Source of the DNA: an uncultured beta proteobacterium
Lineage (GTDB): Bacteria > Pseudomonadota > Gammaproteobacteria > Burkholderiales > Burkholderiaceae_C
Direction of reading: 5' to 3'
Assembly: GCA_903822205.1 (NCBI GenBank)
Contig: CAIJOK010000007.1
Coordinates: 1 to 44,125, forward strand
DNA: 44,125 nucleotides
Every line of letters begins with the position of its first letter. Position 1 is the stretch's first letter. Positions 83 through 18,342 of this stretch are shown piece after piece. The translations under genes were made by a program, and so were the position numbers. The notes beneath the pieces are model-generated. The model saw only the letters and a program-made list of their open reading frames with translations. It had not been told where the DNA came from and made no database searches.

Positions 83-85
83 AAT

Positions 86-2881: not shown

Positions 2882-2896
2882 GGTATAGAACGTGTT

Positions 2897-2997: not shown

Positions 2998-3282
2998 TTA
3001 CCCCACATAAAAATAGTCAGGGTCAGCCGGTTGCACGGCCTTGCCCAGGGTGTGGACGCGGCTTCGTGGGTCAAGACGCAGCAGCATGAAACGGTCGGTT
3101 TCCATGTCCATCAGAACACTCATGTCCTCGATCAGGGCGATGCGCTCGGCCACGGTCAAGAACAACTCATGCACCGACTTTTGCCCGCCGGTGGCATAGA
3201 CACGGGCCAGCTTGAGCGCGGCCACCAGGCGGCGCGGCTCTGCAATGTCATAACAGGCCAGGTGCAATAAGCGTTGAGTCAT
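2998..3282 (-). CDS. cas2: CRISPR-associated protein Cas2 (copy b)
   Basis: This 94-residue Cas2 begins MTQRLLHLACYDIAEPRRL, with the conserved YDI Asp at residue 12. Strands and helices then follow in the order expected for the Cas2 ferredoxin fold (SVHELFLTV, DRFMLLRLD). The start is placed at the ATG at 3282; an alternative ATG lies at 3291. Longer versions would run into the end of cas6 and carry a non-homologous N terminus. The gene follows cas6 and precedes the intact cas1, so the locus reads cas2b-cas1-cas1'-cas2a. Copies a and b share the YDIA-PRRL core but diverge elsewhere, which argues against a recent duplication. I infer two co-inherited Cas1-Cas2 pairs or one heteromeric complex. 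Confidence 0.87.
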   Translation of the reverse strand: MTQRLLHLACYDIAEPRRLVAALKLARVYATGGQKSVHELFLTVAERIALIEDMSVLMDMETDRFMLLRLDPRSRVHTLGKAVQPADPDYFYVG

Positions 3283-3322
3283 GGCCGCCATTGTTAGGCC
3301 ATGCAGGGGGGTTGTCAGGTGT

Positions 3323-3334
3323 GGCAAGCTTGCC
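3323..3334. repeat. Perfect 12-bp palindrome GGCAAGCTTGCC, copy 1
   Basis: A perfect dyad lies in the gap between the cas6 stop (3369) and the cas2b start (3282). The same 12-mer occurs at 11987-11998 inside cmr3 and at 18383-18394 upstream of the operon. Its role is unknown. It could be a protein-binding site, an RNA hairpin or a generally over-represented genomic palindrome. Confidence 0.85.
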
Positions 3335-3368
3335 GGTTTTGGCCAGAGCAGCCTTTGGGGCAGTGCCG

Positions 3369-4355
3369 TTATGCGCTTGGCTTGTGTTCCAACCGATACC
3401 CACCCATTCCCATGGTGGCGTTTTTGCCAACGTGCAGCCATTGGCCCAGCCATAACCAGGGCCAGATTTCGGCCATCGTGGCCTGGCTGCCGTGCAGCGT
3501 CCAGCGTCCCAGAACGCCGCCCAGGGTCATCTTTTGTTGCTGACGGCTGGAATAGCGCGTCCAGTCAAACCAGTGCAAATCCTGCGTGTCGGTCAGGGTG
3601 CTGCTTAGCTGGACGATGTGTTTGGCGGCATCGCCCCAGCCCGTTTGTCCGGCGTGAAACTCCATCAACAGGGTTGTGCGACGTGCGATGGCCGCGATCA
3701 GCGCATGGGGGCCAAGCTGGCCAATGCCCAGAGGCTGGCCCTGATGTTGCAAGCGCAACGGCGTGTCGATGTGCAGTGTGATGGGGGCGTCCGGGGTGTT
3801 CACAGCAGCGTCGTGGGCAAACTCCGGCATCAGGATGGTCGTGGGGTGTTCTTGCAAGGTGGGCTGTTCCATCCACCAGATGGGGTGCGACTGACCTTGC
3901 GCATCCACCCAGTCCACCTGCAACAGGTCAACCGGCACACGAGCCCTGGTCAGGCCTCTACCCAGGGCGCGTTGCAGGGCATAAATGACCAAGGCAAGCT
4001 GTTCTGTGGCGTGGCCAATCAACACGATGTTGAAGGCAAAGTCATCATCGGCATCCAACACCCGTGCGCCCGGGGTTGGGGGTTCCATGACGAAGGGGTT
4101 AGGTATTTGGCTAAAGTCTTGCAGCGCGTGCTGGCCTTTGGGCGGCGGCGGGGCCTCAAAAATGCGGGTGTAGGGACAGGTCTGAATCAGCGGACACCCC
4201 GGGCAGGCGGGGGCGCGGGTCATGCAGGCCACTTGGCGCAGCGCAGCCCCAAACTGGCCGCGCAACAATGATCCTGCGTAATCCGGCAAGGCCAGGGGCT
4301 GCTGCACGCGGGCGGTAAAGCGGTAACGGGTGATGGGCAGGGGGTGAGTGAACAT
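3369..4355 (-). CDS. cas6: Cas6 pre-crRNA processing endoribonuclease
   Basis: Cas6 cuts the repeat transcript to give crRNAs that carry an 8-nt 5' handle. This 328-residue RAMP protein has an N-terminal region with LLRGQFGAALRQVAC. It also has a four-cysteine cluster (C44, C51, C54, C60, in CPGCPLIQTCPY) seen in the large Cas6 subfamily. The C-terminal half ends in the RAMP glycine-rich segment HVGKNATMGMGGYRL (near residues 310-324). The ATG at 4355 directly abuts the stop of the Card1-like gene (4356), so the two are tightly linked. It is the only repeat-processing enzyme in the island and is expected to serve the adjacent array. A catalytic residue cannot be assigned from sequence because Cas6 active sites vary. 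Confidence 0.92.
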   Translation of the reverse strand: MFTHPLPITRYRFTARVQQPLALPDYAGSLLRGQFGAALRQVACMTRAPACPGCPLIQTCPYTRIFEAPPPPKGQHALQDFSQIPNPFVMEPPTPGARVLDADDDFAFNIVLIGHATEQLALVIYALQRALGRGLTRARVPVDLLQVDWVDAQGQSHPIWWMEQPTLQEHPTTILMPEFAHDAAVNTPDAPITLHIDTPLRLQHQGQPLGIGQLGPHALIAAIARRTTLLMEFHAGQTGWGDAAKHIVQLSSTLTDTQDLHWFDWTRYSSRQQQKMTLGGVLGRWTLHGSQATMAEIWPWLWLGQWLHVGKNATMGMGGYRLEHKPSA

Positions 4356-5546
4356 TTACTCCCCTTTGGTTAGCCAGAGCCGACCGATGGTGCCTTTGAG
4401 GTCTTTGAGTTGCGTACCCGACACGATGGCTATGCCGGCCTCTTTGGCGCGCTGGCGGTCGGCCTCGCTGTTGGCCAACTGACCCCGGTAGTCCACCACC
4501 ATGCCGCGCGTACGCAGACCACCCAGTTTCAAGAGCGACTCCATTTTGTAGAGCGCTTCGGTGGCGCGTGAGTCATCACCTTTGCCGTCCTGGGCCAGGT
4601 TGGCGGTTTTGCATTCGATCAGGTGCAGGGTATTGCGGTACAAAAAAGCCACGTCGATCTCGTTTTTGTCGCGCGCCTTGCTGCCAGAGTGGTGGTCTGC
4701 GCCACCAAAGCTAACCCGCACGCCCATGGCGACATCGGTCAAGGCCACGTGCTGGGTACGCAGCGATTGCAGCGCTTCATACACATGCGACTCAAGCCAG
4801 CCACCATTGACAAAAAAGCGTGCTTCTTCGTTTTTGAAGGTCAGCGTCGGGCCGTTTTGGCGCAGCAAGCCAGCATCAATAAACAGGCCAATGAGGTCGA
4901 CCAGCGAACGTGAGTCGTATTGCGCTGGTGTCAAATCGACCCGCAAACCAGGCGCATCGCGTGCCATGCGTGCTATCGCATTGATCGTACCCAGTGCACG
5001 CCCGGCGCTGGCTACATGGTCAATCAGCCGTGCTGTGAGGTCGCGCAGCTCACGCGTGATTTGGGGGTTCTCCTGGGTGCTGACGCTATAGCCGTGAGCG
5101 CGCAACATTTCATGCACCTTGAGTTTGGCGCGCAATGGCTGGCTGGTGGCTTGTTCGCCAATCACCAGCACGGAGTCTGTTTCGACGTTGACGTAAAACA
5201 CCGGTTTGCCGGCTGAACGGAAGACTTCTTGCGCGGCCACGGCCATCAGTTTGGTGCCGCCGGTGACGTTCAATGCGATGTTTTCATCAGCGTGATCGGC
5301 CAGGTAGCTTAAAAAAGTGTCAGACAGTGCGGTGTAGTCGTAGGCGTTGGGTAGCTCCAGTGTTTCAACCACCATGCCGGCGGCTTTGGCCTGAATGACT
5401 GAGCGCAGCGCCAGCGCGGCGTGTTGCATGGGGGCGCTACAGGCCAACACCACTTTTTTGGGACGCCAGGTCTCGTCGAGCACCGGCAGCAGGTTGGGTA
5501 TGGTTTGGGTGGAGACCAGGCAGAGGTGTGTGGTGTAGGGGGTCAT
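4356..5546 (-). CDS. Card1/Can2-type CARF-PD-(D/E)XK nuclease
   Basis: Card1/Can2 proteins (DUF1887) are cOA-activated nucleases. Known members respond to cA4 and nick DNA and/or cut RNA. This 396-residue protein has an N-terminal CARF domain with the ligand-loop motif NVTGGTKLM (residues 93-101). A middle linker/wHTH-like region covers about 145-240. The C-terminal PD-(D/E)XK domain shows GGWLESHV (E252), NEID (D298) and ECK (E311, K313). All expected catalytic positions are present. The gene lies between cad1 (42-bp gap) and cas6 (no gap), so it is expressed with the Cmr complex that would make its activator. The family call is strong. The substrate (ssDNA, dsDNA or RNA) and the preferred cOA ring size cannot be read from sequence. 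Confidence 0.92.
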   Translation of the reverse strand: MTPYTTHLCLVSTQTIPNLLPVLDETWRPKKVVLACSAPMQHAALALRSVIQAKAAGMVVETLELPNAYDYTALSDTFLSYLADHADENIALNVTGGTKLMAVAAQEVFRSAGKPVFYVNVETDSVLVIGEQATSQPLRAKLKVHEMLRAHGYSVSTQENPQITRELRDLTARLIDHVASAGRALGTINAIARMARDAPGLRVDLTPAQYDSRSLVDLIGLFIDAGLLRQNGPTLTFKNEEARFFVNGGWLESHVYEALQSLRTQHVALTDVAMGVRVSFGGADHHSGSKARDKNEIDVAFLYRNTLHLIECKTANLAQDGKGDDSRATEALYKMESLLKLGGLRTRGMVVDYRGQLANSEADRQRAKEAGIAIVSGTQLKDLKGTIGRLWLTKGE

Positions 5547-5588
5547 GTGGCTTCGCTCAATTCATTTTCAGCCCGGCGATCAGCGATC

Positions 5589-7766
5589 TCAGGCACGTAC
5601 ATTTTTTGCCACCAACGTAAACACCTGCGCATCGACCCGCTTGAGCAAGGCTTCACGCTCAGCGCTGGGCAAAAAGGCGTGGACAAACGCCTGGCGAATC
5701 AGGGCCAGACATTCCCACAGCGTCAAACCGTCTTTGCTCATGCGGGCCGCCGCCAGATATTCATCGGCCAGTGTGGTTCGCGAAATGCCGGGGTTGTCGG
5801 TGCATAAAGTCACAGGCAAGCCGTTTTGGATAAAAGTGCGCAACGGGTAGCCTGGCAGGTGCGCCGATGCAGGGTACGCAGGATCGGCAAACCCCACGAC
5901 CTCGCGGTTGGATGTGGGACACAGCTCCAGGCAAATACCCCTGTCGCGAAAGCGTTCAGCCAGTTGCGGGTTGTCAGCCAAGGTGAGGCCGTGGCCAATG
6001 CGGTCAGCGTGCAAGTGGTAGGCCGCTTGCCAAATATGGTCTGCGCTCTCGCCCTCTCCGGCGTGGATGGTCAGCGGCAGGCAGTCGGCAAAAGCAGGCA
6101 AAAAAGCCGGTGCCAGGGCATCGGGTGTCTGGGTGCTTTCATCACCTGCCAAATCAAGTCCCAGCAAAAAGCCATTCAGTTGAGCGCGTGCTGCTACGGC
6201 GTGTTGCACAACTTGGGCGAGATCGGTGGGCTGGCGGCGGTCAAGTATCCAGATAAAGCCGATGCGCGGGGATTGGGGGTCAGACGGGATGTTGGCCTGG
6301 GCGGTCTGTAGAGCATGGCACAGATCACCCACAAAACCAGCGGGGTCGTTAGGACGGTATTTGTGCGGACTGCCGCGCAGTTCCAGATAGGCCAGGCCTT
6401 CGGCACGGGCTTGGGCCACGATGGCTTGCGCGTAGGGCGTAATCGCAGCGGGGTGAGTTAGCAGGGCTGAACCGCTGAGTTCACCGGGCCGCTCAAAGGC
6501 TTCAAAACCATGCGGGTGGTTTTTGAGCGCCACACGTGGCCCGGTCACGTCAAACAGGTTGTGTTGCAACTGCGAATCGCTGGCGTGCAGCAGCAAGGTG
6601 GCGCAGCATTCGGCGCGGTTTGGGCTATTTTTAAGGGGGGTGGGCCAGTCCCATGGCCACTCTTCTATTGATAGCAGACTATGCACGTCCTGTAAGCGTT
6701 GTAGCCGTTTTGCTGGTGCTAATCCAGACAGGATGGCTTGGGCTACGAGGCGCTGTGCTGCCAGGTCCAGACACCCCCCCAGGTGACGGTGCAGGTCGGC
6801 TTTGGGCAGGGCAGTCAGCCAAAGGTCATGGCAGGGCTGTAGCGCGGTGTTGCGCAGTCGCTCAATGTGTGCGGGCGGCAGTCGGTAGAGGCTGCGCCAG
6901 TTTTCATGCCGTTCGGTTTGTGCCAGTTGCGCCATAAAGTTGCCCATCAGTTGGCTGCTTTGGGTCAGGCGGTGCGTGATCTCACGCTGTAGGGTATCGC
7001 CCTCGTCTGGCAGCGGCCAAGCGACGGTTTGGCCAGCGTCGGGCAGTGGCAGTGGAAACCTTTGGCTGCAAACGCGCTGGCCATCAATGCACATGTCCAG
7101 CAGATCATTGCGCCGACCGTTACCTGCCACCAGCGGGGTGATGGCCGCAGCCAGGTCAGCGGACAGTGGCTGCGCCAGCAGGGCGGTTTGTGCCTCTTTT
7201 TCAGCCTCTGATCGGGCAAACAGCAGCGCAGGCAGTGGCTCGGGGCTGACCACGTGCAGCCAGGCCAAGGCACCCAGCAGGGCACCGGCAGTTTGCAGAT
7301 CGGCACTCATGGTTTTGCGTCCGCCCGCCAGTGACAGCACCAATTGCCCTCCGTTGAGTGCCTGTTCGCTGGCCAACAAGGTCACGCGCAGGGTTAGCTC
7401 ACGAATGTGGTCACATTCGGCCTGGCTGGCCAGTTGGTCGGTGCTGGCTGCCGTCCAGATGCGCAATGGCAATGGCTGACCGAGGTGTTGCCACCATGCC
7501 AGCAGGTGTCTCAGACTGGCCCGGGTTTGGATGCCCTCGGTGGTGCAAATCCACAGTTCGTCAGGGGAGCAAAGCTGGTGCTGGTGTCGCAATTGGTCCA
7601 GCGCTGCACGTTTGGGGTGGTGGGCATACAGGTCAAGCAGGTCAGGGGCCAGCCAGCCCAATATCTCAGGGATGACGGCCCAACTGGCTCCCAGTGTGCA
7701 GAGGAGGATGTTTTTGGGGTGGCCCTGAATCGTGCTGGCACTGTGGACTGGCGCGGAAACGTTCAT
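5589..7766 (-). CDS. cad1: CARF-adenosine deaminase fusion (Cad1/CAAD type)
   Basis: This 725-residue fusion has an N-terminal CARF domain of the TIGR02584-like type (residues 15-190, motif SLAGGRKTM at 145-153), a linker, and a complete adenosine deaminase domain from about residue 315. The deaminase metal and catalytic motifs are all visible: HRH (H326, H328), HAGE (H568, E571), RIGHG (H592) and TDNP (D657). Characterised relatives bind cA4 or cA6 made by type III Cas10 and deaminate ATP to ITP, causing growth arrest. Its ATG at 7766 overlaps the stop of the upstream Nudix gene by ATGA. This supports a two-enzyme module in which the Nudix protein hydrolyses ITP. The domain assignment is seen directly; the activity is inferred from the family. 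Confidence 0.94.
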   Translation of the reverse strand: MNVSAPVHSASTIQGHPKNILLCTLGASWAVIPEILGWLAPDLLDLYAHHPKRAALDQLRHQHQLCSPDELWICTTEGIQTRASLRHLLAWWQHLGQPLPLRIWTAASTDQLASQAECDHIRELTLRVTLLASEQALNGGQLVLSLAGGRKTMSADLQTAGALLGALAWLHVVSPEPLPALLFARSEAEKEAQTALLAQPLSADLAAAITPLVAGNGRRNDLLDMCIDGQRVCSQRFPLPLPDAGQTVAWPLPDEGDTLQREITHRLTQSSQLMGNFMAQLAQTERHENWRSLYRLPPAHIERLRNTALQPCHDLWLTALPKADLHRHLGGCLDLAAQRLVAQAILSGLAPAKRLQRLQDVHSLLSIEEWPWDWPTPLKNSPNRAECCATLLLHASDSQLQHNLFDVTGPRVALKNHPHGFEAFERPGELSGSALLTHPAAITPYAQAIVAQARAEGLAYLELRGSPHKYRPNDPAGFVGDLCHALQTAQANIPSDPQSPRIGFIWILDRRQPTDLAQVVQHAVAARAQLNGFLLGLDLAGDESTQTPDALAPAFLPAFADCLPLTIHAGEGESADHIWQAAYHLHADRIGHGLTLADNPQLAERFRDRGICLELCPTSNREVVGFADPAYPASAHLPGYPLRTFIQNGLPVTLCTDNPGISRTTLADEYLAAARMSKDGLTLWECLALIRQAFVHAFLPSAEREALLKRVDAQVFTLVAKNVRA

Positions 7767-8413
7767 GGGGCGTGTTGTAACAAATACTGCGCAGCCAGCC
7801 GGCTCCAGAGTTCAAAGCGGGGCTGGGCGCAGATGTCTTCCAAATCGACAAAACCCAGGCTGGCAAGTTTTTCATTCGGTTGAGGTTCGGGGTCATGGGC
7901 ACCGCACCACACGGCGGTATAGAGCACCCCCAGATGAACCCGACCGACAGCACTCAGTCCCTCGTAAATCAGACCACAGAGACGCACATCGCGCAAGTCG
8001 GCAGGGGTCATTTGCAGCTCCTCACCCAGTTCGCGCAACAAGGTTTGGTGCAGGGTGGTCACAGCGTTGAATGGCTGACTGGCATCTTGTGCGTCCTGTG
8101 CATCCTGTTGATCCACATGCCCCCCTACGCCGCAACTGCAACGGCCATCCAGCCGTGCATCGCCGCCCACGCGCTGATAGCACCACACCTGGCCCGCCGT
8201 GTTGAACAGCAGCAGATAAACGACCGCTTGCAAGTAACGTTCGTCGTGTTCCACATTCGCACGGGCTTGCCACAGGGGCGGGTGCAAAAAGTCCAGAACG
8301 TCTGTGGTGATGCAGCCAGATACAGGTAGCTTTGGGGCTTGGTGGCGGGGGATGGTGAGGATGTGGGGCATCACAGCATCCCACCCGTCATGATTGGCGA
8401 AGATTGAAGCCAC
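7763..8413 (-). CDS. Nudix hydrolase (MutT-like) coupled to cad1
   Basis: Nudix enzymes cleave nucleoside diphosphate linkages. The protein carries a Nudix box that starts GVGGHVD and ends LLRELGEELQM, keeping the RExxEEL core. The first part of the box is expanded by a QDAQDAQDAS segment encoded by a 9-bp tandem repeat (8082-8108). The GGHVD-(insert)-RELGEEL layout resembles MutT-family predicted phosphoesterases (COG4112-like). The annotated start is the GTG at 8413. An ATG at 8371 preceded by GGGTGGGA is a credible alternative and gives 202 residues. The gene sits 4 bp after hicB, and its stop overlaps the cad1 start. In a described type III CAAD system a Nudix partner converts ITP to IMP, and this gene is the obvious counterpart. 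The substrate is inferred. Confidence 0.88.
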   Translation of the reverse strand: MASIFANHDGWDAVMPHILTIPRHQAPKLPVSGCITTDVLDFLHPPLWQARANVEHDERYLQAVVYLLLFNTAGQVWCYQRVGGDARLDGRCSCGVGGHVDQQDAQDAQDASQPFNAVTTLHQTLLRELGEELQMTPADLRDVRLCGLIYEGLSAVGRVHLGVLYTAVWCGAHDPEPQPNEKLASLGFVDLEDICAQPRFELWSRLAAQYLLQHAP

Positions 8414-8417
8414 ATCA

Positions 8418-8630
8418 TCAAGCGAACATCAGTCTGCCGCTCCTGGCTTGTGGCACGGTTCGACCGGCACTTTGTGCAGTTTCCATCCACAAGTTCATTG
8501 CGTTTTTTGCCTCTGCCAGCGCCGCCTCATGCGTATCGCCATGGGCCATGCAGCCTGGTAATTCAGGAACGTCGGCAATAAAGGCCTGGTCTTCATCGCT
8601 CCAGAAAATAATGATTTCAAAGTGGTCCAT
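8418..8630 (-). CDS. hicB: HicB-family antitoxin
   Basis: This 70-residue protein has the HicB partial RNase H-like fold signature: FEIIIFWSDEDQAFIADVPELPGC, then the ALAEAKNAMNLWMETA helix and a RLMFA end. It is the short HicB type without a C-terminal DNA-binding domain, so autoregulation would need HicA or another factor. It neutralises the mRNA interferase HicA. The gene begins 2 bp after the hicA stop and ends 4 bp before the Nudix start, so the pair is fully inside the CRISPR operon rather than inserted with its own flanks. The family call is firm. A role in protecting the CRISPR operon is inference. Confidence 0.93.
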   Translation of the reverse strand: MDHFEIIIFWSDEDQAFIADVPELPGCMAHGDTHEAALAEAKNAMNLWMETAQSAGRTVPQARSGRLMFA

Positions 8631-8632
8631 CT

Positions 8633-8881
8633 TTACGCCTCTAACTTGTATTTGACAATGATATTTCTCACCTGTTTGACCTGATACGGTTTGGCATGAT
8701 TGCCATCACGTTGCAAATTGATCAATTCGGCCACGGCGGACTTTGTGAAAACGTGGTGGCTGCCCCTTGCGCGAACTTCAAAGCCAAGATGAATCAACAA
8801 TCCGCACAATTCGTCAAAACCAATATTGACATCAGATGTGCCGCGAAGTATGCGAAGCAGTAGTTTTGCATGTTGGCTCAT
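8633..8881 (-). CDS. hicA: HicA-family mRNA interferase toxin
   Basis: HicA toxins are small dsRBD-fold ribonucleases that cleave mRNA. This 82-residue protein matches the longer HicA subfamily: ILRGTSDVNIGFDELCGLLIHLGF, then the catalytic GSHHVF motif (H42/H43), INLQ and a YQVKQVRNIIVKYKLEA end. All expected elements are intact, so the toxin is probably active. Its ATG (8879-8881) overlaps the TGA of cmr6 (8878-8880) as ATGA, so it is translated from the Cmr mRNA. HicA precedes HicB, the usual order for this family. In this context it could act as an addiction module for the operon or as an extra dormancy effector; both are inferences. Confidence 0.93.
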   Translation of the reverse strand: MSQHAKLLLRILRGTSDVNIGFDELCGLLIHLGFEVRARGSHHVFTKSAVAELINLQRDGNHAKPYQVKQVRNIIVKYKLEA

Positions 8882-10077
8882 GGCCCGGTGAGACCCTTGA
8901 GTTGCAGCGCATTGCCGAGTTGCACCACTTCGACCGATACACCTTTGAGTTCCTTGTTTTTTCTGAGCTTGTTGGCGCGTTCTTCACCCAGGTCTGCGCG
9001 TAGTTCATTGGCTTGCGGGTTTTTCAGGGCGGTGGTGGATTTGCCCTCAAAGCTGGCGGTGATTTCACCTGTTCCGGGATTGAAAGTGAGCTTGGCTGCG
9101 GGCCAGGTTTGGCTGACAGTTGCAGATGCCGTTAATCTCACACCTGCAACGTGATGGGTGACAGCACCAACTGCTGCACCGTTGCTAGGGCGTTGTGCAT
9201 TGGCAGCGGCCATTGCACCATAACCCACTGATGTTTTGGCACCAAAACCAACCCAATCAAAGGCATGTGCAAAGGCGCGATCCAGCAAATCACGCCATTG
9301 GTTTTGCAAGGCAGCGGGTAATCGGTTGGGCTGGCAGACCACGTGAAAGTCAAACTGCGATTGGGCAGGAACGGCTAAAAAGCTGACGGGAACAGGCGCA
9401 CCGGAGTCGTGTGGCGTTTCTTCACCTTGGTAGTACTTGCCGAAATGCGGTGTCATGATTTCAACCACCAGTTTTCCACCCGCCGGGTTGGGGAACACGT
9501 CCCAAAAATCGAGTGCACCGCGCTTTGCATCTTCAGGCTGGTTGACGGTCTCAGGGCCAAACAAGGCATCAATGGCCGTATCGGTCAAGCCGTCTTCTCC
9601 ATCGTTGCGTAGCTCCAGCATTGACCTGCGCAAAATGCCCTTGACCCCGCTGCCAGCCAGATAGGGTAAGCCGTAAGGTGTCAGAAAGGCAAAGCCGTTT
9701 TCGATGGGGTGCTCGTTGCCCAGGCCAGTGGCAAACGGGGCGGTGGAGGTTGTGCTGATGCGGTAGGCGTTGGGGCCGTAGTGGGCGATCAGGGTTTGCT
9801 GGCGGGCACGAAGGGCAGCAATGTGGGATTTTGCGGAGTCACCGAGGGGGCAAACATTGCCCAGAGCACATCTCTTGCGATCTTCAAATTCCTTGCGAAT
9901 CCGCTCACGTTCCGGCTTGTCAAGATGCCTGATGTCTGGCAGTCTTGCGTCTTTGTATGGCGTGAAGCGGCCAGCCTCCCAATGGGTAAAGTAGAGGTGA
10001 AATCGGTGACCCGGGGCAGCATCACCAAATTGCGCTGGAATGCGATAGGGTATTGCAGCAATGAGATCGGGGATCAT
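8878..10077 (-). CDS. cmr6: Cmr6, type III-B RAMP subunit
   Basis: Cmr6 is a Cas7-like RAMP that caps the crRNA 3' end of the Cmr complex. The 399-residue protein has the RAMP signature LAGSGVKGILRRSMLELRN (near residues 141-160). It also carries GLGNEHPIENG upstream and a glycine-rich loop WVGFGAKTSVGYGAM towards residue 300. About 100 further residues follow, a C-terminal extension rich in charged residues (ELRADLGEERANKLRKNKEL) beyond the RAMP core. The ATG at 10077 is 3 bp after the cmr5 stop. Its stop overlaps the hicA start. The assignment is supported by sequence and by position after cmr5. Confidence 0.92.
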   Translation of the reverse strand: MIPDLIAAIPYRIPAQFGDAAPGHRFHLYFTHWEAGRFTPYKDARLPDIRHLDKPERERIRKEFEDRKRCALGNVCPLGDSAKSHIAALRARQQTLIAHYGPNAYRISTTSTAPFATGLGNEHPIENGFAFLTPYGLPYLAGSGVKGILRRSMLELRNDGEDGLTDTAIDALFGPETVNQPEDAKRGALDFWDVFPNPAGGKLVVEIMTPHFGKYYQGEETPHDSGAPVPVSFLAVPAQSQFDFHVVCQPNRLPAALQNQWRDLLDRAFAHAFDWVGFGAKTSVGYGAMAAANAQRPSNGAAVGAVTHHVAGVRLTASATVSQTWPAAKLTFNPGTGEITASFEGKSTTALKNPQANELRADLGEERANKLRKNKELKGVSVEVVQLGNALQLKGLTGP

Positions 10078-10080
10078 GGG

Positions 10081-10473
10081 TTAGTCCTTTGATTTAACGG
10101 CATCGACAAATTGCCGCAGCCACTTGAGCAATTCAAGTGCCTCGTCGGTGAATCGCAAGTAGTCGCGTGATTCACACTTTTGAAGCATGACCATGAAAGA
10201 TGCAAAGTCACGTGGCGCTGGTTGCAGTGCCAAGCGCTGAGTCATGCCGGTCAATAAATCCGTCAGCAATGCAGATTCGGCCACCCCTTCCCGTGCCTTT
10301 GACTTGCTGTTGTAAAAAGCCAGGGTTGGCATCAGACCACTGTTCATGATCAGTGCTGGCGCGCCCTTGGCTAAATTCCTGTACTTGTCAGGCAATTCAC
10401 CTTGCAGTTTTCGGCTATTGGTGGCGAACTGCCAAGCTAATGCGGCGCGTTGTTGGTCGAGGGTTTGGGTCAT
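10081..10473 (-). CDS. cmr5: Cmr5, small subunit of the type III-B complex
   Basis: Cmr5 is the all-helical small (Cas11-like) subunit that lines the Cmr backbone and helps bind target RNA. The 130-residue product starts MTQTLDQQRAALAWQF and contains NLAKGAPALIMNSGLMPTLAFY, a characteristic Cmr5 segment. It ends with predicted helices LELLKWLRQFVDAVKSKD. The start is set at the ATG at 10473, which has GAG about 8 bases upstream. ATG codons at 10479 and further upstream would add residues without family support. The gene is 3 bp from cmr6 and is separated from cmr4 by the antitoxin-like gene. Confidence 0.93.
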   Translation of the reverse strand: MTQTLDQQRAALAWQFATNSRKLQGELPDKYRNLAKGAPALIMNSGLMPTLAFYNSKSKAREGVAESALLTDLLTGMTQRLALQPAPRDFASFMVMLQKCESRDYLRFTDEALELLKWLRQFVDAVKSKD

Positions 10474-10566
10474 CAACATTCTCACTAAAAAAAGACACAA
10501 TTTGCAGACGATCCTGCACGGCCTTGACCAAGCGTTGTTGAGTAAAAGTACATGCGCTGCATGGTC

Positions 10567-10839
10567 TTACTCCCAACTGTCGCGTTCTTCGCGGATGTAT
10601 TGGTCAATTTCTTCAGCGGTTCGACCTGTGGGGGGTTGCGTGCTCAGCCATGACGCGAACTCCGCCATATTGGCAAACCGTGGCTTGACTATTTCGGTGG
10701 ATGGCGTTGAGTCGGGAAAAAGCACGATGATTTTGGCTGAACCCACGGGTGAATTGGCTGGCAGTTCAAACGCTACGCGATGCGTCGCAGGCACGTCATG
10801 TTCGAATTGATAGGCTTGATAGGCTTGATAGGCTTGCAT
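10567..10839 (-). CDS. Antitoxin-like small protein between cmr4 and cmr5
   Basis: This 90-residue acidic protein has no Cas family resemblance. Its layout matches small type II antitoxin-like proteins: a short N-terminal beta region (FELPANSPVGSAKIIVLFPD), a linker, and a C-terminal segment ASWLSTQPPTGRTAEEIDQYIREERDSWE written here in parts as ASWLSTQPPTGRTAEEID and QYIREERDSWE. The ERDSWE ending is common in antitoxins paired with PIN-type toxins. No toxin gene of normal size follows; cmr5 comes next. The N terminus MQAYQAYQAYQF is encoded by a 9-bp tandem repeat that looks like a recent expansion of a single AYQ unit. It is either an orphan antitoxin captured by the operon or a small accessory subunit. 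Function unknown. Confidence 0.7.
   Translation of the reverse strand: MQAYQAYQAYQFEHDVPATHRVAFELPANSPVGSAKIIVLFPDSTPSTEIVKPRFANMAEFASWLSTQPPTGRTAEEIDQYIREERDSWE
10807..10836. repeat. 9-bp tandem repeat at the start of the antitoxin-like gene
   Basis: Three head-to-tail TTGATAGGC units plus a partial TTG cover codons 2-11 of the gene at 10567-10839. On the coding strand they encode repeated AYQ. The repeat stays in frame, so gain or loss of units would change only the N-terminal length. Confidence 0.9.
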
Positions 10840-10866
10840 GTTCTTGTCTCTAAGTCTGAAAACGAC

Positions 10867-11844
10867 TTAAACCCGCGATACCGGGGCGGCTTGCACCAGC
10901 ACCAGTCCGCGTCCGGTGGTGGCATCGCCGCCGATTTGCAAGAGTTTGCCACCGATACCTGGCACACCCTCACCTGCAAACACTGTGGTCAAGACTTGGT
11001 CTGCCGTCAGCATGGTCTCTGGCTTGTGCCCTTTTTTAAAGCGCTCAATGCTGGCCTGCGCCAAACCGACCATCAGCGTCTCGGGCGGCAAGTTTTCTAC
11101 ATAAAACAGGCCACCGTCCTTGGCCGTTCCAGAGTTGTCGTCAATGCAGACATGCGGTTCCACCACCATGGCATGGCGGGCAAAATGGGCAAAGTCGGTA
11201 TCATTCAGCAGCACCAAGTCGGTTTTTAACTTGTTGGCAAAAAAAGCGTTGGCACTTGCCTGTAAAGCATTGTCTGCTATCCATTTTGCTATAGATTGGA
11301 GTTGGGAATCGACCGTGGTGGTGAATTCAAAGGCTTCAAGAACCAGTTGGTCAGCTAGCGCAGCGGCAGCCGCACCCGGGCGCTGACCCAGCAGCGCATG
11401 GCTGGCCGCAAGCGCCTTGTTTTCTGCCACGGCAGGCACGCTCCAGTCACATGGCAAACCTGCTTGTTGCACCAGTCGCAGCAAGCGCGCCAAGGCCAAC
11501 GGGCTGGTCACATAGGCGAAGCCGCCTTTAAGTGATCGCACCGGCAAGGCCACCAGTTGGGCATCGCTCAAAGACAGCGCACCGGCAAAGTCAGATGCAC
11601 TGGTGTCGGGTCCAAAAATGCGGCTGATCAGGCTGTTCGGTTTACTACTGTCACCTTCAATGCGTGGCCAGGCACGGTTGAAGTGGTGGCGCAGCGCGCC
11701 TTTCAAACCACTGCCGGCAAACATGGGGTGCTGTGTGTGGACTTCTCGCTGGATAGGGCTGTCAATGGCCCCAATGGCGCTGCCTGCCCCCATGTGGACG
11801 GGGCTGATAGCGTAGTAAAAAACGACTTGGGTGGCTTCAAACAT
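10867..11844 (-). CDS. cmr4: Cmr4, backbone RAMP with target-RNA cleavage site
   Basis: Cmr4 is the Cas7-like subunit repeated along the Cmr backbone; it cuts bound target RNA at 6-nt intervals. The 325-residue protein begins with the Cmr4 hallmark YYAISPVHMGAGSAIGAIDSPIQREV, given here in parts as YYAISPVHMGAGS and AIDSPIQREV. Asp28 is the expected catalytic acid. MFAGSGLKGALRHHF (about 41-55) is the RAMP loop, and a glycine-rich stretch GKLLQIGGDATTGRGL lies near the C terminus. The ATG at 11844 has AAGGA five bases upstream. The catalytic Asp is intact, so RNA cleavage is predicted to be functional. Confidence 0.95.
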   Translation of the reverse strand: MFEATQVVFYYAISPVHMGAGSAIGAIDSPIQREVHTQHPMFAGSGLKGALRHHFNRAWPRIEGDSSKPNSLISRIFGPDTSASDFAGALSLSDAQLVALPVRSLKGGFAYVTSPLALARLLRLVQQAGLPCDWSVPAVAENKALAASHALLGQRPGAAAAALADQLVLEAFEFTTTVDSQLQSIAKWIADNALQASANAFFANKLKTDLVLLNDTDFAHFARHAMVVEPHVCIDDNSGTAKDGGLFYVENLPPETLMVGLAQASIERFKKGHKPETMLTADQVLTTVFAGEGVPGIGGKLLQIGGDATTGRGLVLVQAAPVSRV

Positions 11845-11884
11845 GGGGGTTCCTTGCTAAGTTGGCAGTGTGTAACAGTGATCT

Positions 11885-13060
11885 TTAGTTCCATGCACCC
11901 AGCAGGGCGCGGTTGTAGCCTTCGGCGCGGCGGGTTTGTTGCAATAGGTCTGGATTGTGTGGCCACAACCCGTTTTCGACCCATCTGGCAAGCTTGCCAG
12001 CGTCGCCTGCAAATTCATCAAACCAATACACACTGCCAGCGGGTACTGCTGCCTGCGCGGGTTTGGGATGCCATTGGTACAAGTTCCAGCCACTGACGAT
12101 GTCACGCCGCCCCAGCGCAGCGCAGGCCAGCCGGGCACTAAAGCCGTCACCTTGCAAGCGGTAGCTACCGTTTTGCTCAACCACGCCCTCGGGCAACCAC
12201 CCCTGGGCAAACAAGCAGGGGGTTTGCATCAGCAGACGAAAACGACCTGCATTGACCGGCAGTTTGGCCACAGGTGGGGGCAGTGTTACACGGCGGTAAT
12301 GGGCACTTCGGCCATCACCGCCCAGGCGCAACTGGCCTTGTGCTGGCAACATGTCTGCCACGCCCTGAATCCCAACCAGAAAGCCGGTGCTGACAAATTT
12401 GGCGGAGGTTTTGGCATCTTTGGGACTGAAGGCGAAACCTTCGGTGGTGTAAATCTGGCCCTCTTCAGCGGTGTGGGCATCGGTGTTCAAACCAATACCC
12501 AAGCGTGGGTCTCGTTGAAACAGGTGATGGCTCTCAATGCCGCAAACAGGCTCAAGGGACTGGCCTTGCAGGTGCAACGTTAAACCATTGCTGCTCAGAT
12601 AAATCCCACCTTTGGGTTTTTCTTGTTTGGCTGAGTTCAGCGTGGCTCGCAGAGGCAAGTGACCTGCAGACTTCACACCGGTTTGAACGGGGCGAGGCTG
12701 TAGTTTGGCGAAGACTTTGTCAATCATCAGCAGATCAGCCGGTAAGGGTGAAATCGGTTCAGGTGTTGCACCAGCGCTGGGTTCACCTGCCAGCGATAGC
12801 CAGGTGATTTGGAAATCGCCAGGAGCAACTGGTGTGCCCATACATTGCGCCAAGTTGGCATCACTGCATTGCCCACTGCCCAAAAATGCGGCATGCTGCA
12901 CGGCATCGTGCCCCAGTAAGGCCGACCGAAATGCCCCTGCAAACAAGGACGGTGGTGGCGGCATTAAACCTGTGCCGTGTTCGCCACTGTCGCCAAAAGC
13001 CAGGTTGCCGCGCACAAACAGGCTGTCGGTGGGGCAGACGTAGTAATAGGTGGTGCTCAT
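11885..13060 (-). CDS. cmr3: Cmr3, Cas5-like subunit
   Basis: Cmr3 is the Cas5-like protein that, with Cas10, forms the foot of the Cmr complex and holds the crRNA 5' handle. The 391-residue protein starts TTYYYVCPTDSLFVRGNLAFG and carries MPPPPSLFAGAFRSALLG, the characteristic Cmr3 N-terminal pattern. A GDGFSARLACAALGRRDIVSGW segment lies towards the C terminus. Its start (13060) overlaps the stop of cmr2 (13057), so the two are translationally coupled. One copy of the 12-bp palindrome lies near the 3' end of the gene (11985-12000), where it also extends to a 16-bp dyad. Confidence 0.93.
   Translation of the reverse strand: MSTTYYYVCPTDSLFVRGNLAFGDSGEHGTGLMPPPPSLFAGAFRSALLGHDAVQHAAFLGSGQCSDANLAQCMGTPVAPGDFQITWLSLAGEPSAGATPEPISPLPADLLMIDKVFAKLQPRPVQTGVKSAGHLPLRATLNSAKQEKPKGGIYLSSNGLTLHLQGQSLEPVCGIESHHLFQRDPRLGIGLNTDAHTAEEGQIYTTEGFAFSPKDAKTSAKFVSTGFLVGIQGVADMLPAQGQLRLGGDGRSAHYRRVTLPPPVAKLPVNAGRFRLLMQTPCLFAQGWLPEGVVEQNGSYRLQGDGFSARLACAALGRRDIVSGWNLYQWHPKPAQAAVPAGSVYWFDEFAGDAGKLARWVENGLWPHNPDLLQQTRRAEGYNRALLGAWN
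11985..12000. repeat. 16-bp perfect palindrome containing GGCAAGCTTGCC, copy 2
   Basis: CTGGCAAGCTTGCCAG is a perfect dyad near the end of the cmr3 coding region, coding for LASLAG-type residues in one frame. It is the only copy of the 12-bp core that lies inside a gene. Confidence 0.85.
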
Positions 13061-16038
13061 GCAGCGACTCCCTGTGTATCAGCTTGAGTTTGCATGGGCT
13101 TGTCGGGCCGAAACGCACGTGCTTCTCGGGCAAAAAATTCGCTGGTGACAAGAAAGTTGTCAATGGCGGTTCTGGGGTGTTGGGGTTGCATGACATCGCA
13201 GACAAAATTGACCACGCGACGGGCCACTTCCTTGTCGCCTTTTTGGCGATGGAACTGGTAGGCCAAAGAGGTGGTCATTTGGTCGCGCCAGTTTGAATTT
13301 ATGGCATCACTGGCATCGTCGGTCAGACCTTCAAACCAGAGTTGCGCGTGGTAAATGGCACCCCGTGAAAAGTCGGTCAGTGCCAACTGTTGCGCCAACT
13401 GCTTCATTAGCGCCAATGCGCTTTGCGATGTATCGGGCTTCTGATTGGCTGGTGCCCGCCACCACGGGCTGGTGACGTTAACCTCACCACCGCCGCGCTT
13501 CAAAACTCTCAGGCAAAAAGCATCACGGTTGATGTCGTTGCCCTTGCCATCTGTGCCATGTGCGGTGTTTTTTGCACGGCTCTCGGCGGATCGCAATTCA
13601 CGTAGCACACTACTCAGCGGCGCGCTATGGTGTGCAACCACTGCTCCCATGGACGCAGTGGCTTTGTGTCCCATCAGCGTCATCAGGCGGCCATCAAGAA
13701 GACCAAAGCCATTATTGAGCAACAGTTTGCGCTGCACCTTGCTGCTGCCTGGGTGTAATGCACCGATGCGCTCACCCAGACCCATGTTGTCATCGGGCGC
13801 AATGCCGCTGTAGGCCAGGCGCAGCAACTGCATGCAGTCAAACAGGTCGTCTGCCGCCACCAGCGCCATCACATCGTCACCCCCGGCATAAAGCAGCTTG
13901 CCCTTGCAGCACTCCTCCACCACGTGACGCGCCAGTCGGGTTGAAAAGTCATTGAGTGCCTGCGAAATGGCAGCGTGGCGACCGGGCGATGCCGGGCGTT
14001 TGGTGTTCAGATAGTTTGTCAGTTGCGGGTCAAGGCGCTCAAACATCTGCATTTCAGAGATTATCTTGCTATGCCAGGTGTCACGGTAGGCCAGTTTGTA
14101 AGCGTCTTCATTGCCAGCCAGCCAGCCGCCCATGCGATCGCCGTCCATCAGAATCAGTGCATAGTAGGTTTCATGCCGACTGTCCCCAAGCAATCGCTGG
14201 ATGGTGTCTTTCAGATGGGGACTGTCTTCCTCTTGCTCCATCATCGAAGGCAGGCGTTTGAGGACATCCCGCTGTGCCTGTGGCAGGCGATGCAGTTGGC
14301 GCACCAGAGATTTTGGCAGTGTGACGGGGTCATAGTCTGATGTACTGGAAGCCAGCACCAACAAGGCCGCCTGCTGATCTGTTGTCATCGGGTGGTTGGG
14401 GTCTGTCAGTTTTTCAATCGTCGTTGACAGGGCCAGTGCGTGGGTGCTGACAACAAAGCGCTGCACGCTACCTTTTGTCAGGCGGCTGACACGCTCGGCA
14501 AACAGGGTGGGCCACAGGCGTTTGAGGGTAGCAATGGCGCATAGATGCTCACCGCGTTTGACCCAGGATTTTTTGGCTTTGGCCAGTTTGCCCCAGACGC
14601 TTTTGGCTTCGCGATCTTTGCGATTAAGCCCCAGCAAGGCACGGTCATCGGTCAACCATTCGGCCTCGCCGGTCAGGGTGCAGCGGTGGCCTTCTTGCAG
14701 CATGGCAGCAAATGGCCGTGTGGCCTTGGCCGCGCTCAGTGCCCGTTCGGCCAGTTCATACACAGCGGGGTAAAGAATGCCGGTGTTGGGTTGCCAAAAG
14801 CTCAAATCTTTGAGTTTGAGTTCTTTGGTCAACACCTTCCAGACATCGTCCTTAAAAATCCCCTGCTTTTTCAAATCAGGATGAATGGTGTCCATTGCCG
14901 TGTGCAGACGAGCGCAGGCTGTCTGGATGTCTTTGCAGCCTTCGCCATCGACGGGCCAATCTGCAGCAGCCCAACAGGCTTCAGGAAAACCAGCCAGTTG
15001 TACGTTGATCTGGTCGCGTGTCACATCGGTCATGGTCACATCCACCGCTTTGAAAACACGTTCGGCGGCATCCATTGCCCAGGTTTTGGCCGCATGGCGA
15101 ATGGCCGCGGTGGCTTGTTCGGCTAGCGCTGCCGCCTGGCGTGACGGGACAATAGCCATGAATTTATTGGGCAGACTGGCGGCAAACAGGGGGTTGGTGT
15201 CGGTGGTGTCGCTAAGCAATTCTGAGTCAATATCGTCAAACAACTGCGTGAACGCATCGCCACCGATGTCCATCAGCCACTGATCCACCACAGGCACACC
15301 GCGCAGGGCCGGGAAGACCACCACATCCGGCCCCAAATGGTTGATGATGGGCTTCATGGCTTCAAACACCAACGACGACAACAGGTGCGAACCCGCCCAC
15401 AAGTCAGATGTAGAGCGTGCCTGGCCGATAAACCCCTGCACCGGGCCAAAGCTCATCACCATCAGCGCGGGTTGATCGGGGCCGCTTTCGTCACCCGCCA
15501 ACGCCGTGTGAATGGCTGAGACGGTATCCACGTGTGACCAGATGCTGTGGTCGGGTGTGCGTGAATCGGCTGGCAGCATAGGCCAGAGCACACCCAGTTC
15601 GTCAGCCTGATGCCCGGCCTCGGGGCCAAAGCGCCAAAAAGCAAGAAAGGTTTTGCGGTCATCGTCACCTTGAATCAAGCCCTCAAAATGTTGCTGGCTA
15701 AATGATTTGATTTGCTCTACGCCAATATTCAGGTCAAGCGAGGCAAGTTTGAGCCGTTCGCCTGACAGTGGATGAACCAGCTCGGCCTCTTGGCTGAATT
15801 TGACGGATTCAAACTGCGGGTAGCGACGCGCATCATCGCCACGCGGCCAGTTCGGACGGTCGGCGGCGGCAGCCATGTGGTCAGCACGTTTGTCAAATTC
15901 TTGCGAAGAAATATCCAACGCCTCGCGCAACCGGCGCACCGTGCCGCCCTCATGCCCCTCACGGTCGCGCATCAGAATCAGTTGCTTTTCGGCGGGGTCG
16001 TGCAACCAGGCTGCCAGTTTTTTGGTGTAGTTGGTCAT
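13057..16038 (-). CDS. cmr2: Cmr2/Cas10, type III-B large subunit with GGDD cyclase
   Basis: Cas10 is the signalling subunit. On target RNA binding its palm domains polymerise ATP into cyclic oligoadenylates. The 993-residue protein has an N-terminal HD region (AAWLHDPAEK, H13-D14, and DHSIWSHVD near 163-171). The first palm segment is YALILMDGDRMGGWLAG (627-643), and the cyclase motif is LLYAGGDD (GGDD at 719-722). The GGDD motif is intact, as expected for a locus with CARF effectors. The HD motif is at least partly present, so ssDNA cleavage is possible but uncertain for Cmr2. The start (16038) lies 4 bp after cmr1, and the end overlaps cmr3. The assignment is certain; the ring size of the product is not readable. 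Confidence 0.97.
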   Translation of the reverse strand: MTNYTKKLAAWLHDPAEKQLILMRDREGHEGGTVRRLREALDISSQEFDKRADHMAAAADRPNWPRGDDARRYPQFESVKFSQEAELVHPLSGERLKLASLDLNIGVEQIKSFSQQHFEGLIQGDDDRKTFLAFWRFGPEAGHQADELGVLWPMLPADSRTPDHSIWSHVDTVSAIHTALAGDESGPDQPALMVMSFGPVQGFIGQARSTSDLWAGSHLLSSLVFEAMKPIINHLGPDVVVFPALRGVPVVDQWLMDIGGDAFTQLFDDIDSELLSDTTDTNPLFAASLPNKFMAIVPSRQAAALAEQATAAIRHAAKTWAMDAAERVFKAVDVTMTDVTRDQINVQLAGFPEACWAAADWPVDGEGCKDIQTACARLHTAMDTIHPDLKKQGIFKDDVWKVLTKELKLKDLSFWQPNTGILYPAVYELAERALSAAKATRPFAAMLQEGHRCTLTGEAEWLTDDRALLGLNRKDREAKSVWGKLAKAKKSWVKRGEHLCAIATLKRLWPTLFAERVSRLTKGSVQRFVVSTHALALSTTIEKLTDPNHPMTTDQQAALLVLASSTSDYDPVTLPKSLVRQLHRLPQAQRDVLKRLPSMMEQEEDSPHLKDTIQRLLGDSRHETYYALILMDGDRMGGWLAGNEDAYKLAYRDTWHSKIISEMQMFERLDPQLTNYLNTKRPASPGRHAAISQALNDFSTRLARHVVEECCKGKLLYAGGDDVMALVAADDLFDCMQLLRLAYSGIAPDDNMGLGERIGALHPGSSKVQRKLLLNNGFGLLDGRLMTLMGHKATASMGAVVAHHSAPLSSVLRELRSAESRAKNTAHGTDGKGNDINRDAFCLRVLKRGGGEVNVTSPWWRAPANQKPDTSQSALALMKQLAQQLALTDFSRGAIYHAQLWFEGLTDDASDAINSNWRDQMTTSLAYQFHRQKGDKEVARRVVNFVCDVMQPQHPRTAIDNFLVTSEFFAREARAFRPDKPMQTQADTQGVAA

Positions 16039-16042
16039 GTTC

Positions 16043-17170
16043 TTAACCCTTGCGAATGCGGGTGATCAGTGAGGGTGGCTGTTGGTTCAAAAAGGCGTGA
16101 ACTTGTTGCCAGACTGCAATTTGATGATCGATTGCAGGCGGACGCACTTGGCTGCGATCGAAAAAGGCTGTGGGCATGGCACAGGGCAAATGCGTGATGA
16201 GACCAAAGTATTGCCCATCCTTGTTTTTGGCCACTTTGAAACGCGCCTGACTGGCCAAACGGGCGTTGGGAAGTCCAGTCAAGCCGTGGTTGGTGACCGG
16301 GTAGGCCAAAACATGGCGGTCTTCGACACGACCGTGCGGCGCGCCGCTGCTAAATTTGAACTGGGTTCGAAAACCGATTTTGAGTGCGGCCAGCTTTTCC
16401 AGAACCTGCTTCCATTCCTTGAACCCCTCATAGACCAACTTTTTATCGGCATTGAGCTTTTTGTCAGAAAACACGCGCCAGACAGCGGGACGGCCATCCG
16501 CGCATAAACCAAACGCGTGGGGCCATTCTGCGGCCATACCGGGAGTCAAACAATCGCTCAGGTTGCGCGGCTGCGCTTGTTGAGCCAGCTTGGAATCGCA
16601 CAGCCCCTCAAGCCCCAGTATGCTTTCACCTTCAATGTGCAATGACCCCCAACCATTGCGTGAACGCGATCCCACTGTGCCAAACCAGGCAGCCAATTGC
16701 ATGGCCTTGTGAATGGATGGCGCATCTTGCGACGGACACCGCAATTTCAGAGTGAGCGCGGGCGCAGCAGGGTCAATGGCACTGCGAATGCCGTGGGTGG
16801 TGACAGGGCCAAAGCCTAAATAGACCGCAGTGCCCACGGGGACAAGCTGTCCGTTGCGCTGGACTTCGTTGTGTTGATGTGTAGCCATGTTGGGCAGTTG
16901 ATTGAGCCTGCCGGTATCCCACGCCGACAACCGCAACTGCACTTTGGAACGCCCACCACCCGAGTCATTCCCCGCGCTGCCAAACAAGTCGTTTTCAAGT
17001 TTGAGCAACTCGCGATGGTCATAGCCGACATCGGGCGCTTTCACCACCCGCCACCATTGCCGCAGCAGTGCCTTGAAGGGAGGCGTTCGCCATTGAGCCT
17101 GTTGTTCGGCATTACCTAAAAAGGCAGGGGTATTGAAACTAACCTGATAGGTCAACTCACGCATGGTCAT
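16043..17170 (-). CDS. cmr1: Cmr1, type III-B RAMP subunit
   Basis: Cmr1 is a Cas7-like subunit at the crRNA 3' end of the Cmr complex, with a role in target capture. The 375-residue protein opens with LTYQVSFNTPAFLGNAEQQAQWRTPPF. The diagnostic segment FKALLRQWWRVVK (near 33-45) follows, and then LFGSAG. A second glycine-rich loop SRSRNGWGSLHIEG lies near residue 180. The start is the ATG at 17170; an ATG two codons later is possible. It follows the CARF-wHTH gene by 5 bp and precedes cmr2 by 4 bp, so it is the first structural gene of the complex. Confidence 0.93.
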   Translation of the reverse strand: MTMRELTYQVSFNTPAFLGNAEQQAQWRTPPFKALLRQWWRVVKAPDVGYDHRELLKLENDLFGSAGNDSGGGRSKVQLRLSAWDTGRLNQLPNMATHQHNEVQRNGQLVPVGTAVYLGFGPVTTHGIRSAIDPAAPALTLKLRCPSQDAPSIHKAMQLAAWFGTVGSRSRNGWGSLHIEGESILGLEGLCDSKLAQQAQPRNLSDCLTPGMAAEWPHAFGLCADGRPAVWRVFSDKKLNADKKLVYEGFKEWKQVLEKLAALKIGFRTQFKFSSGAPHGRVEDRHVLAYPVTNHGLTGLPNARLASQARFKVAKNKDGQYFGLITHLPCAMPTAFFDRSQVRPPAIDHQIAVWQQVHAFLNQQPPSLITRIRKG

Positions 17171-17175
17171 CGGTA

Positions 17176-18342
17176 CTACTCCTTAAAAACCACATCCGAG
17201 GTGAATCGTACCGCATCAGGTTTCAGACTCAACCCATAGCGGCGCGGGCGAACGCCACCGTCGTGGATGCGGTAGGCCTCGGCGGCAGGCCCAAGCGCTG
17301 TTTTCAGGCGTTTGTCCAGCTTGGATTTGCGAGCAGAGAAATACTCGCCGTCCATGCCGTTTTTCAGTGATCGCTCGGTGCCCTCAATGTCAGCCATGCT
17401 GCCGGTGATGCGCCGGTATTCGCGCAGATAGCGACTGGCCCAGACAGGGTCAGGCACGCCCTTGGTGGGGGCGCTTAAAGGGTCATTGCCTTGCAGGGTC
17501 TGGCGTGCAAAGACAGCCAGCAAAGCCAACTCGGCGGGTGGCAAACAGACTTCATGCCCGGCTGCCAGGATGCGTTGGCGAGCCAGGTCAAGTGTCAATT
17601 GCGCCGGTGCCAGAGCCAGCCGGGCGGCTGCGACCGTGTCGTTAAAGCTGGCTTGCCCGGCCAGCAGCGCGGTGGGCAGGCCGTGGCGCAGACTGACAAA
17701 TGGGATTTCAGCCAGCGTGACCTGCGCCAATGCCGTGTCGGCCAGTTGGCCATCGCGGGTTTGCAGCACACGGCTGTAGGGTGTTGGGTAGAAAAAGTCA
17801 TAGCTGGACTCAAACGGCTCGCTGACCAGCACGTGGCTCAACCGGTCTTGTGGCCTGCCGAACAGTGACAGGGCATAGCCCAGATAAAACCCCATGGTCT
17901 TGCGCCCGCCTGCAATCGAGGCATGCAAGGCGCAGTCAGCATCGGCGGTGATCGAACGCACCTGGGCGGTGATGAAGTCTGCCGCTGCGCGGTTGTCCGA
18001 TGGACTGCGAATGTCGTTCATCGGCTGACCGTGGGCATCGCGCATCACGTGGATGCAACTGCGATCAAACCTGACACCGGGCAACTGGTAGTCAGAGCAA
18101 AGTTTGTAAAACCAGCCCAGGTCGTCACTGAGCAGCGACAGCTCGGCACGGCGTGCACCCTCCGCGCTGGTGATCAAATGCACCTCGGTGGGTACAAAGG
18201 GCGCAAACTCGTCGGCTGCTAGTGCGTACAAAGTTTCGGTCACGATCTGGGGTGTCAGACCGCTGACCGCCAGTAGCACGCGGCGCTGGAAGTCAGAAGG
18301 ATCGTGGGGCCTGGTATGTGGGCCTGTCGTGGGGGTGTTCAT
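17176..18342 (-). CDS. CARF-winged-helix protein (NE0113/TIGR02584-like)
   Basis: This 388-residue protein opens the operon. Residues 20-190 form a CARF domain: RRVLLAVSGLTPQIVTETLYAL, HLITSAEGARRAEL, and the ligand-loop motif SIAGGRKTMGFYLGYAL. The motif is close to the one in Cad1. The C-terminal part (about 270-388) has LPPAELALLAVFARQ and later SKLDKRLKTALG and RPRRYGLSLKPDAVRF, the helix-helix-wing order of a response-regulator-type winged helix. No nuclease motif (HEPN RxxxxH or PD-(D/E)XK) is visible. It is therefore best read as a cOA-responsive DNA-binding regulator, possibly of its own operon. Ring-nuclease activity is an alternative. The CARF call is strong, the wHTH call moderate. 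Confidence 0.85.
   Translation of the reverse strand: MNTPTTGPHTRPHDPSDFQRRVLLAVSGLTPQIVTETLYALAADEFAPFVPTEVHLITSAEGARRAELSLLSDDLGWFYKLCSDYQLPGVRFDRSCIHVMRDAHGQPMNDIRSPSDNRAAADFITAQVRSITADADCALHASIAGGRKTMGFYLGYALSLFGRPQDRLSHVLVSEPFESSYDFFYPTPYSRVLQTRDGQLADTALAQVTLAEIPFVSLRHGLPTALLAGQASFNDTVAAARLALAPAQLTLDLARQRILAAGHEVCLPPAELALLAVFARQTLQGNDPLSAPTKGVPDPVWASRYLREYRRITGSMADIEGTERSLKNGMDGEYFSARKSKLDKRLKTALGPAAEAYRIHDGGVRPRRYGLSLKPDAVRFTSDVVFKE

Follow-up and report, generated by a model that had tools for sequence, protein, structure and literature searches.

Type III CRISPR loci that carry several CARF effectors, presumed to share one activator, have been described by Hoikkala and colleagues (Hoikkala 2024, PMC11229360). 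In the part of that paper available to us, three effectors per locus are rare (three examples of Csx1 with Can1-2 and Cam1, regulators being left out), and a text search of the same part found no Cad1, Nudix, adenosine deaminase, toxin or HicA. Here we analyse a 44,125-nucleotide (nt) stretch of DNA from an uncultured beta proteobacterium (contig CAIJOK010000007.1, positions 1 to 44,125; hereafter the window), in which a type III-B operon encodes three different CARF proteins. Cad1/CAAD proteins (TaqCad1, chain 9ebt; LngCAAD, probably 8z3k; BabCad1, 9c67) combine a CARF domain with a deaminase bearing conserved zinc-site motifs and TDN; TaqCad1 and LngCAAD prefer cyclic tetra-adenylate (cA4) and BabCad1 prefers cyclic hexa-adenylate (cA6), although each can be activated by the other ring too. 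A conversion of ATP to inosine triphosphate that depends on cyclic oligoadenylate and a hexameric form also mark the group. Can2/Card1 (7bdv, 6wxw) and VC1899 (1xmx) combine CARF and PD-(D/E)XK domains, with a TGGTK motif and catalytic residues. Csa3/NE0113 proteins (Makarova 2014, PMC4012209) are CARF proteins with predicted transcription control, and the accessible part of that paper places a winged helix-turn-helix (wHTH) on most CARF proteins. The parts of the operon described here are each of a known kind; their stacking is unusual.

The genes on which the argument turns are the following (aa, amino acids).

17176..18342, minus strand, CARF5/NE0113-family protein, 388 aa, CARF domain at about 20-215 and predicted OmpR/PhoB-like winged helix at about 247-381 (family, model and fold)
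13057..16038, minus strand, Cas10/Cmr2, 993 aa, HD at 13-14 and GGDD from 719 (family match and motifs)
7763..8371, minus strand, NUDIX hydrolase of Tm1382 type, likely ATG at 8371, 4-nt overlap with cad1
5589..7766, minus strand, Cad1 (CARF-adenosine deaminase), 725 aa, GGRK from 148, HRHLGG from 326, HAGE from 568, TDN from 656
4356..5546, minus strand, Can2/Card1-type CARF-PD-(D/E)XK nuclease, NEID from 295, ECK at 311-313

The three CARF genes share one minus-strand operon with cmr1-cas10-cmr3-cmr4-cmr5-cmr6 and cas6; the spacing between neighbours runs from -4 to 66 nt. Family matches identified all six type III-B genes (Cmr1, Cas10/Cmr2 and Cmr3-6), and the cyclase motif of Cas10 is intact at the sequence level. 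The first-pass annotation of the window had reported this intact GGDD and three CARF proteins on a single minus-strand operon at these positions, and gene families, motifs and coordinates bear it out. It had, however, counted three effectors, where we count two plus a probable regulator; and its picture of the operon, sound for the CARF and Cmr set, had overlooked several genes: NUDIX, two that form a HicAB-like pair, one PIN-partner-like gene that stands alone, and those for Cas6 and adaptation.

With the cyclase motif intact and three CARF proteins encoded together, joint triggering of nucleotide loss, nucleic-acid cutting and a change in transcription, also proposed in that annotation, is the natural reading. 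We consider it moderately likely that the III-B Cas10 raises a cA4 alarm that is read by Cad1 (with an ATP drain through NUDIX), by Can2 and by the CARF5 regulator. The proposal builds on the genes, their order and overlaps, their families and catalytic motifs and their recurrence in relatives, and on a winged helix predicted by modelling. In this mechanism, Cas10 would sense target RNA and make mainly cA4 for the operon's three CARF proteins to read. Cad1 would convert ATP to inosine triphosphate (ITP), and NUDIX, translated beside it, would take ITP to inosine monophosphate (IMP); the ATP loss would be hard to reverse because NUDIX hydrolyses ITP to IMP. Can2 would cut nucleic acids, while CARF5 would bind cA4 through its CARF domain and adjust transcription, the likeliest target being the operon that its own gene heads. 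We infer the production of cA4, its binding by each CARF domain, the NUDIX substrate and the promoter targeted by CARF5.

The nature of the signal can be approached through the CARF motifs. CARF5 and Cad1 carry the G-R-K motif II of Sso2081 type and Can2 a GTK version, a contrast that the first-pass annotation had taken as a possible sign of different ligands. According to the part of PMC10018336 that was available, Sso2081, a cA4 ring nuclease, has both Lys and Arg in motif II (G-R-K), while Can2 and Card1 lack the motif I GTS and the motif II Arg but keep the Lys; all three are classed as cA4 proteins in the part of PMC11229360 available. Since both kinds occur among cA4 proteins, the motif II difference appears to mark two kinds of CARF domain and not two ligands. 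The ring nuclease Csx16, which is described as specific for cA4 (PMC13148439), was detected in 8 of 41 related cad1 loci, our comparison set, taken from genome contigs and often cut by contig ends. Motif comparison and Csx16 in these siblings favour cA4 for all arms, and a single cA4 signal is probably the best reading of the sequences. Under ring-size routing, Cas10 would make both cA4 and cA6, with Cad1 (and CARF5) answering cA6, Can2 answering cA4 and the arms firing separately. The GRK/GTK contrast and the cA6 preference of BabCad1 speak for it, but we regard it as quite improbable: both motif types are found among cA4 proteins, motif I of Cad1 lies nearer to the cA4-preferring TaqCad1, siblings carry Csx16, and different signals within one locus are very rare among co-located effectors in the portion of PMC11229360 available.

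Cad1 itself has a CARF domain and a deaminase with the zinc-site motifs and TDN of the solved Cad1 proteins. Its motif I, GASWAV, is closer to GTSWAV of TaqCad1 than to GHSSMV of BabCad1, which counts against the split of ligands; motif II is GGRKTMS, compared with GGYKTIS, GGFKTMS and GGIKSMS, and the paired sensor motifs read GASWAV/GGRKT against GTSWAV/GGYKT in TaqCad1. The protein differs from known Cad1 in its length (725 aa compared with 600-635), in the R of motif II and in the NUDIX gene that overlaps the start of cad1; its neighbours differ too, being Can2 and CARF5 in this operon but Csx1 at the TaqCad1 locus as described. A tblastn search for Cad1 at 1e-20 over 72,556 plasmid records gave no matches. 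Of 399 genomes searched, nine matched Cad1, but in six of these nine the match covers mainly the deaminase part (26-33%) and was rejected as Cad1. The Can2 protein pairs its CARF sensor with PD-(D/E)XK catalytic residues (E296, D298, E311 and K313), invariant across 21 aligned sequences, and shows no notable difference from Can2/Card1; its top solved match is VC1899 (1.5e-34).

The effector set recurs in relatives. CARF5, Cad1 and Can2 were all detected in 11 of the 41 loci (L013, L017, L018, L019, L022, L025, L026, L028, L030, L031 and L040), a lower bound because many contigs end near cad1; L017, whose CARF5 is split in two, is included, L052 is excluded as it holds only a cad1 remnant, and a stop within its match kept L032 out of the Cad1 alignment. 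Four CARF proteins (CARF5, an intact Csx1, Cad1 and Can2) are present in L026, L030 and L031, the last two being close relatives.

The gene beside cad1 encodes a NUDIX fold with an REx2EE motif. An alternative GTG start at 8413 is also open, and its first 12 residues are modelled without confidence. NUDIX lies directly before cad1 in 11 of the 41 loci, and its family was found in only 1 of 399 genomes of the order, that of the window itself. Distant relatives, about 26-30% identical, occur in 7 plasmid and 14 phage records, and the protein matches PHROG 8902, of unknown function, at 5e-27; from the phage relatives and this match, the fold is also a phage gene. The phage relatives (records H8-H21, 28-30% identical) may represent a nucleotide or counter-defence gene. 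In L033 and L046 the order is Csx16, NUDIX, Cad1, so that ring nuclease, NUDIX and deaminase are consecutive, and in L013, L014 and L035 a protein of 113-166 aa from an unknown family precedes nudix (excluded from the toxin-antitoxin counts below).

NUDIX enzymes usually remove damaged or odd nucleotides. This role, together with the MutT-like enzymes among the structural neighbours of the protein, would fit a protective enzyme that removes ITP and dITP once the alarm is over to let the cell recover, not one that deepens ATP loss. A search of the open-access literature found no Nudix enzyme with Cad1. Li and colleagues are, however, said to have described in 2025 the conversion of ATP to ITP to IMP by Cad1 and a Nudix enzyme, which puts Nudix in an ATP-depleting path, and we consider the protective role somewhat unlikely. 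The two roles are inseparable from sequence.

The third CARF protein exceeds the NE0113 cut-offs (TIGR02584/PF09623/PADLOC CARF5; 154.9 against 23 and 258.4 against 80.65 bits). Its motif I is SGLTPQ and its motif II GGRK, and the predicted model of its C-terminal domain adopts an OmpR/PhoB-type winged-helix fold. Based on this model, CARF5 is a probable transcription regulator; compared with the Csa3/NE0113 regulators as presented in the available part of PMC4012209, it stands out by the OmpR/PhoB-like form of its modelled winged helix and by a CARF fold nearest to Cad1 and Crn1-type ring nucleases, with Sso2081 and Sis0455 among its neighbours. The NCBIfam label for TIGR02584 is 'ring nuclease Csm6'. 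We rejected CARF5 as a Csm6: no Pfam HEPN family matched at E 0.1, and modelling gives its C-terminal half a winged-helix fold.

CARF5 could instead act chiefly as a sink, ending the response by cleaving cA4 as a ring nuclease, with the winged helix secondary. That label points this way, as do the closeness of its CARF fold to Sso2081 and Sis0455, the G-R-K motif II and the host genome, in which PF09652 and PF08960 were searched for and neither was found, other ring nuclease families not having been searched there (for PF09652, 0 of 14 control genomes matched and the positive control matched 2 of 4 genomes). Measured against the Crn1-like pattern, GTS in motif I and R plus K in motif II, CARF5 has GLT and GRK and Cad1 has GAS and GRK. 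The available part of PMC10018336 describes G-T-S as important for cleavage, where CARF5 has G-L-T; its C-terminal half is predicted by modelling to be a DNA-binding domain, and Cad1 may itself be a ring nuclease. We therefore regard a sink as rather doubtful as the main function, although a ring-nuclease role is compatible with regulation.

Several observations weigh against the proposed cA4 alarm as a whole. Motif I of Cad1 is GAS, unlike GTS of TaqCad1, and Cad1 proteins respond to cA4 as well as cA6. NUDIX went undetected in 30 of the 41 loci, some of whose contigs end near cad1, so that Cad1 is probably able to work without it, and the NUDIX fold is compatible with many substrates. CARF5 also matches the PADLOC WYL/Csx1 model PDLC01036 (1.9e-70, residues 19-380), an alternative reading of its C-terminal half, while Pfam WYL gave no match at E 0.1. 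Upstream of CARF5 we found no promoter-like site or clear operator, 18343-18556 holding only weak inverted repeats.

The core beneath this effector set appears exchangeable. The DNA of the window matches that of L013 at 80% over CARF5 (17161-18228) and at 66-77% over most of 806-8371, with no match between 8372 and 17160, where L013 carries Csm1-5. The conserved CARF5 and nudix-cad1-can2-cas6-adaptation blocks flank a Cmr core in the window and a Csm core in L013. Identities to L013 (III-A) are 88% for CARF5, 79% for Can2, 74% for Cad1 and 63% for NUDIX; those to L020 (III-B) are lower, at 58% for Can2, 67% for Cad1 and 50% for NUDIX. A quick Cad1 tree (30 rows, 19 labelled with core type and 11 not) has at least four core-type changes, three forced by well-supported branches, a number that many shuffles match or fall below (81 and 68 of 500).

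The remaining genes of the core and the adaptation region are as follows.

16043..17170, minus strand, Cmr1 (family match)
11885..13060, minus strand, Cmr3 (family match)
10867..11844, minus strand, Cmr4 (family match)
10081..10500, minus strand, Cmr5 (family match)
8878..10077, minus strand, Cmr6 (family match)
3369..4355, minus strand, Cas6 (family match)
2998..3453, minus strand, Cas2-like open reading frame, match at residues 64-130, true start probably internal
1877..2881, minus strand, Cas1 with the usual catalytic motifs (family match and motifs)
1101..1880, minus strand, Cas1-like paralogue, 4-nt overlap with cas1, Pfam Cas1 on the N-terminal half only
742..1083, minus strand, Cas2 (family match)
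80..535, strand unassigned, CRISPR array with seven copies of a 37-nt repeat (repeat detection)

The Cas1-like paralogue is present in 12 of the 41 loci, usually beside two cas2-like genes; its family lacks the EG motif in 13 of 13 aligned rows, while 20 of 21 Cas1 rows have it. None of 50,697 phage records matched the array region (1-620) by megablast. In L042 a calcineurin-like phosphoesterase (12502-13902; Metallophos, 5e-13) follows cas6.

Three further genes are embedded in the operon.

10567..10839, minus strand, 90-aa gene between cmr4 and cmr5, of the family of a PIN-preceding gene, no Pfam match
8633..8881, minus strand, HicA-like toxin, 82 aa, GSHH motif, 4-nt overlap with cmr6, homologue in L014
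8418..8630, minus strand, HicB-like antitoxin, 70 aa, PF15919 at 2e-11, homologue in L014

The HicB-like protein has the antitoxin domain (44.4 bits against a cut-off of 27), while HicA reaches 26.3 bits against PF07927, just under its cut-off of 27. The HicAB block is 76% identical in DNA between the window (III-B) and L014 (III-A). Members of the 90-aa family precede a PIN-domain gene in L019, L020, L047 and L049; the window has no following PIN gene. Using seeds from these same loci (HicA, HicB, two PIN types, their partners, HEPN and MNT; other kinds may be missed), we found 28 toxin-antitoxin (TA) genes in 10 of the 41 loci (L013, L014, L015, L016, L017, L019, L020, L032, L047 and L049), of the kinds HicAB, HEPN-MNT and two PIN types. 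All 28 lie inside cas operons on the cas strand, both strands having been searched, a count that is inflated by kinship and covers these cad1 loci only. Nine of the loci have one or more complete pairs; the pair in L016 is cut by the contig end, and L020 has three. The slots vary (cmr3/cmr4, cmr4/cmr5, core/nudix and cad1/can2). The partner of PIN_L020a is a putative antitoxin, assigned by gene position and not through membership of any known antitoxin family. One hidden Markov model seed, from L046 (8213-8641), proved to be a translated CRISPR array, and its matches were removed from all counts.

In their account of toxin-immunity coupling, Makarova and colleagues (Makarova 2012, PMC3506569) place toxin-like genes, PIN and RelE among them, within or close to type III operons; here, by comparison, toxin and antitoxin genes sit together within cas operons. 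HicAB and the other embedded TA genes may simply be passengers, carried along by a locus prone to recombination and contributing nothing to defence. Their position and kind differ among relatives, and the window has a PIN-partner-like gene without its PIN gene; against this stand the shared strand of all 28 genes, whose weight is lowered by shared descent, and overlaps such as that of HicA with cmr6. We find the passenger explanation evenly balanced.

It is unlikely, but conceivable, that the locus is a layered shutdown device, in which cA4 effectors and TA pairs are co-transcribed under a cA4-sensing OmpR-type regulator, with an exchangeable Cmr/Csm core beneath. If so, the alarm would halt synthesis, short-lived antitoxins would vanish and the toxins would add a second wave of arrest; alternatively, the toxins would punish loss or silencing of the operon. 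HicAB here, and HEPN-MNT and PIN pairs in relatives, would then join the ATP drain of Cad1 and NUDIX and the cleavage by Can2. The exchange of Cmr for Csm beneath a single chassis of effectors suggests that the CRISPR core evolves independently of the choice of effectors.
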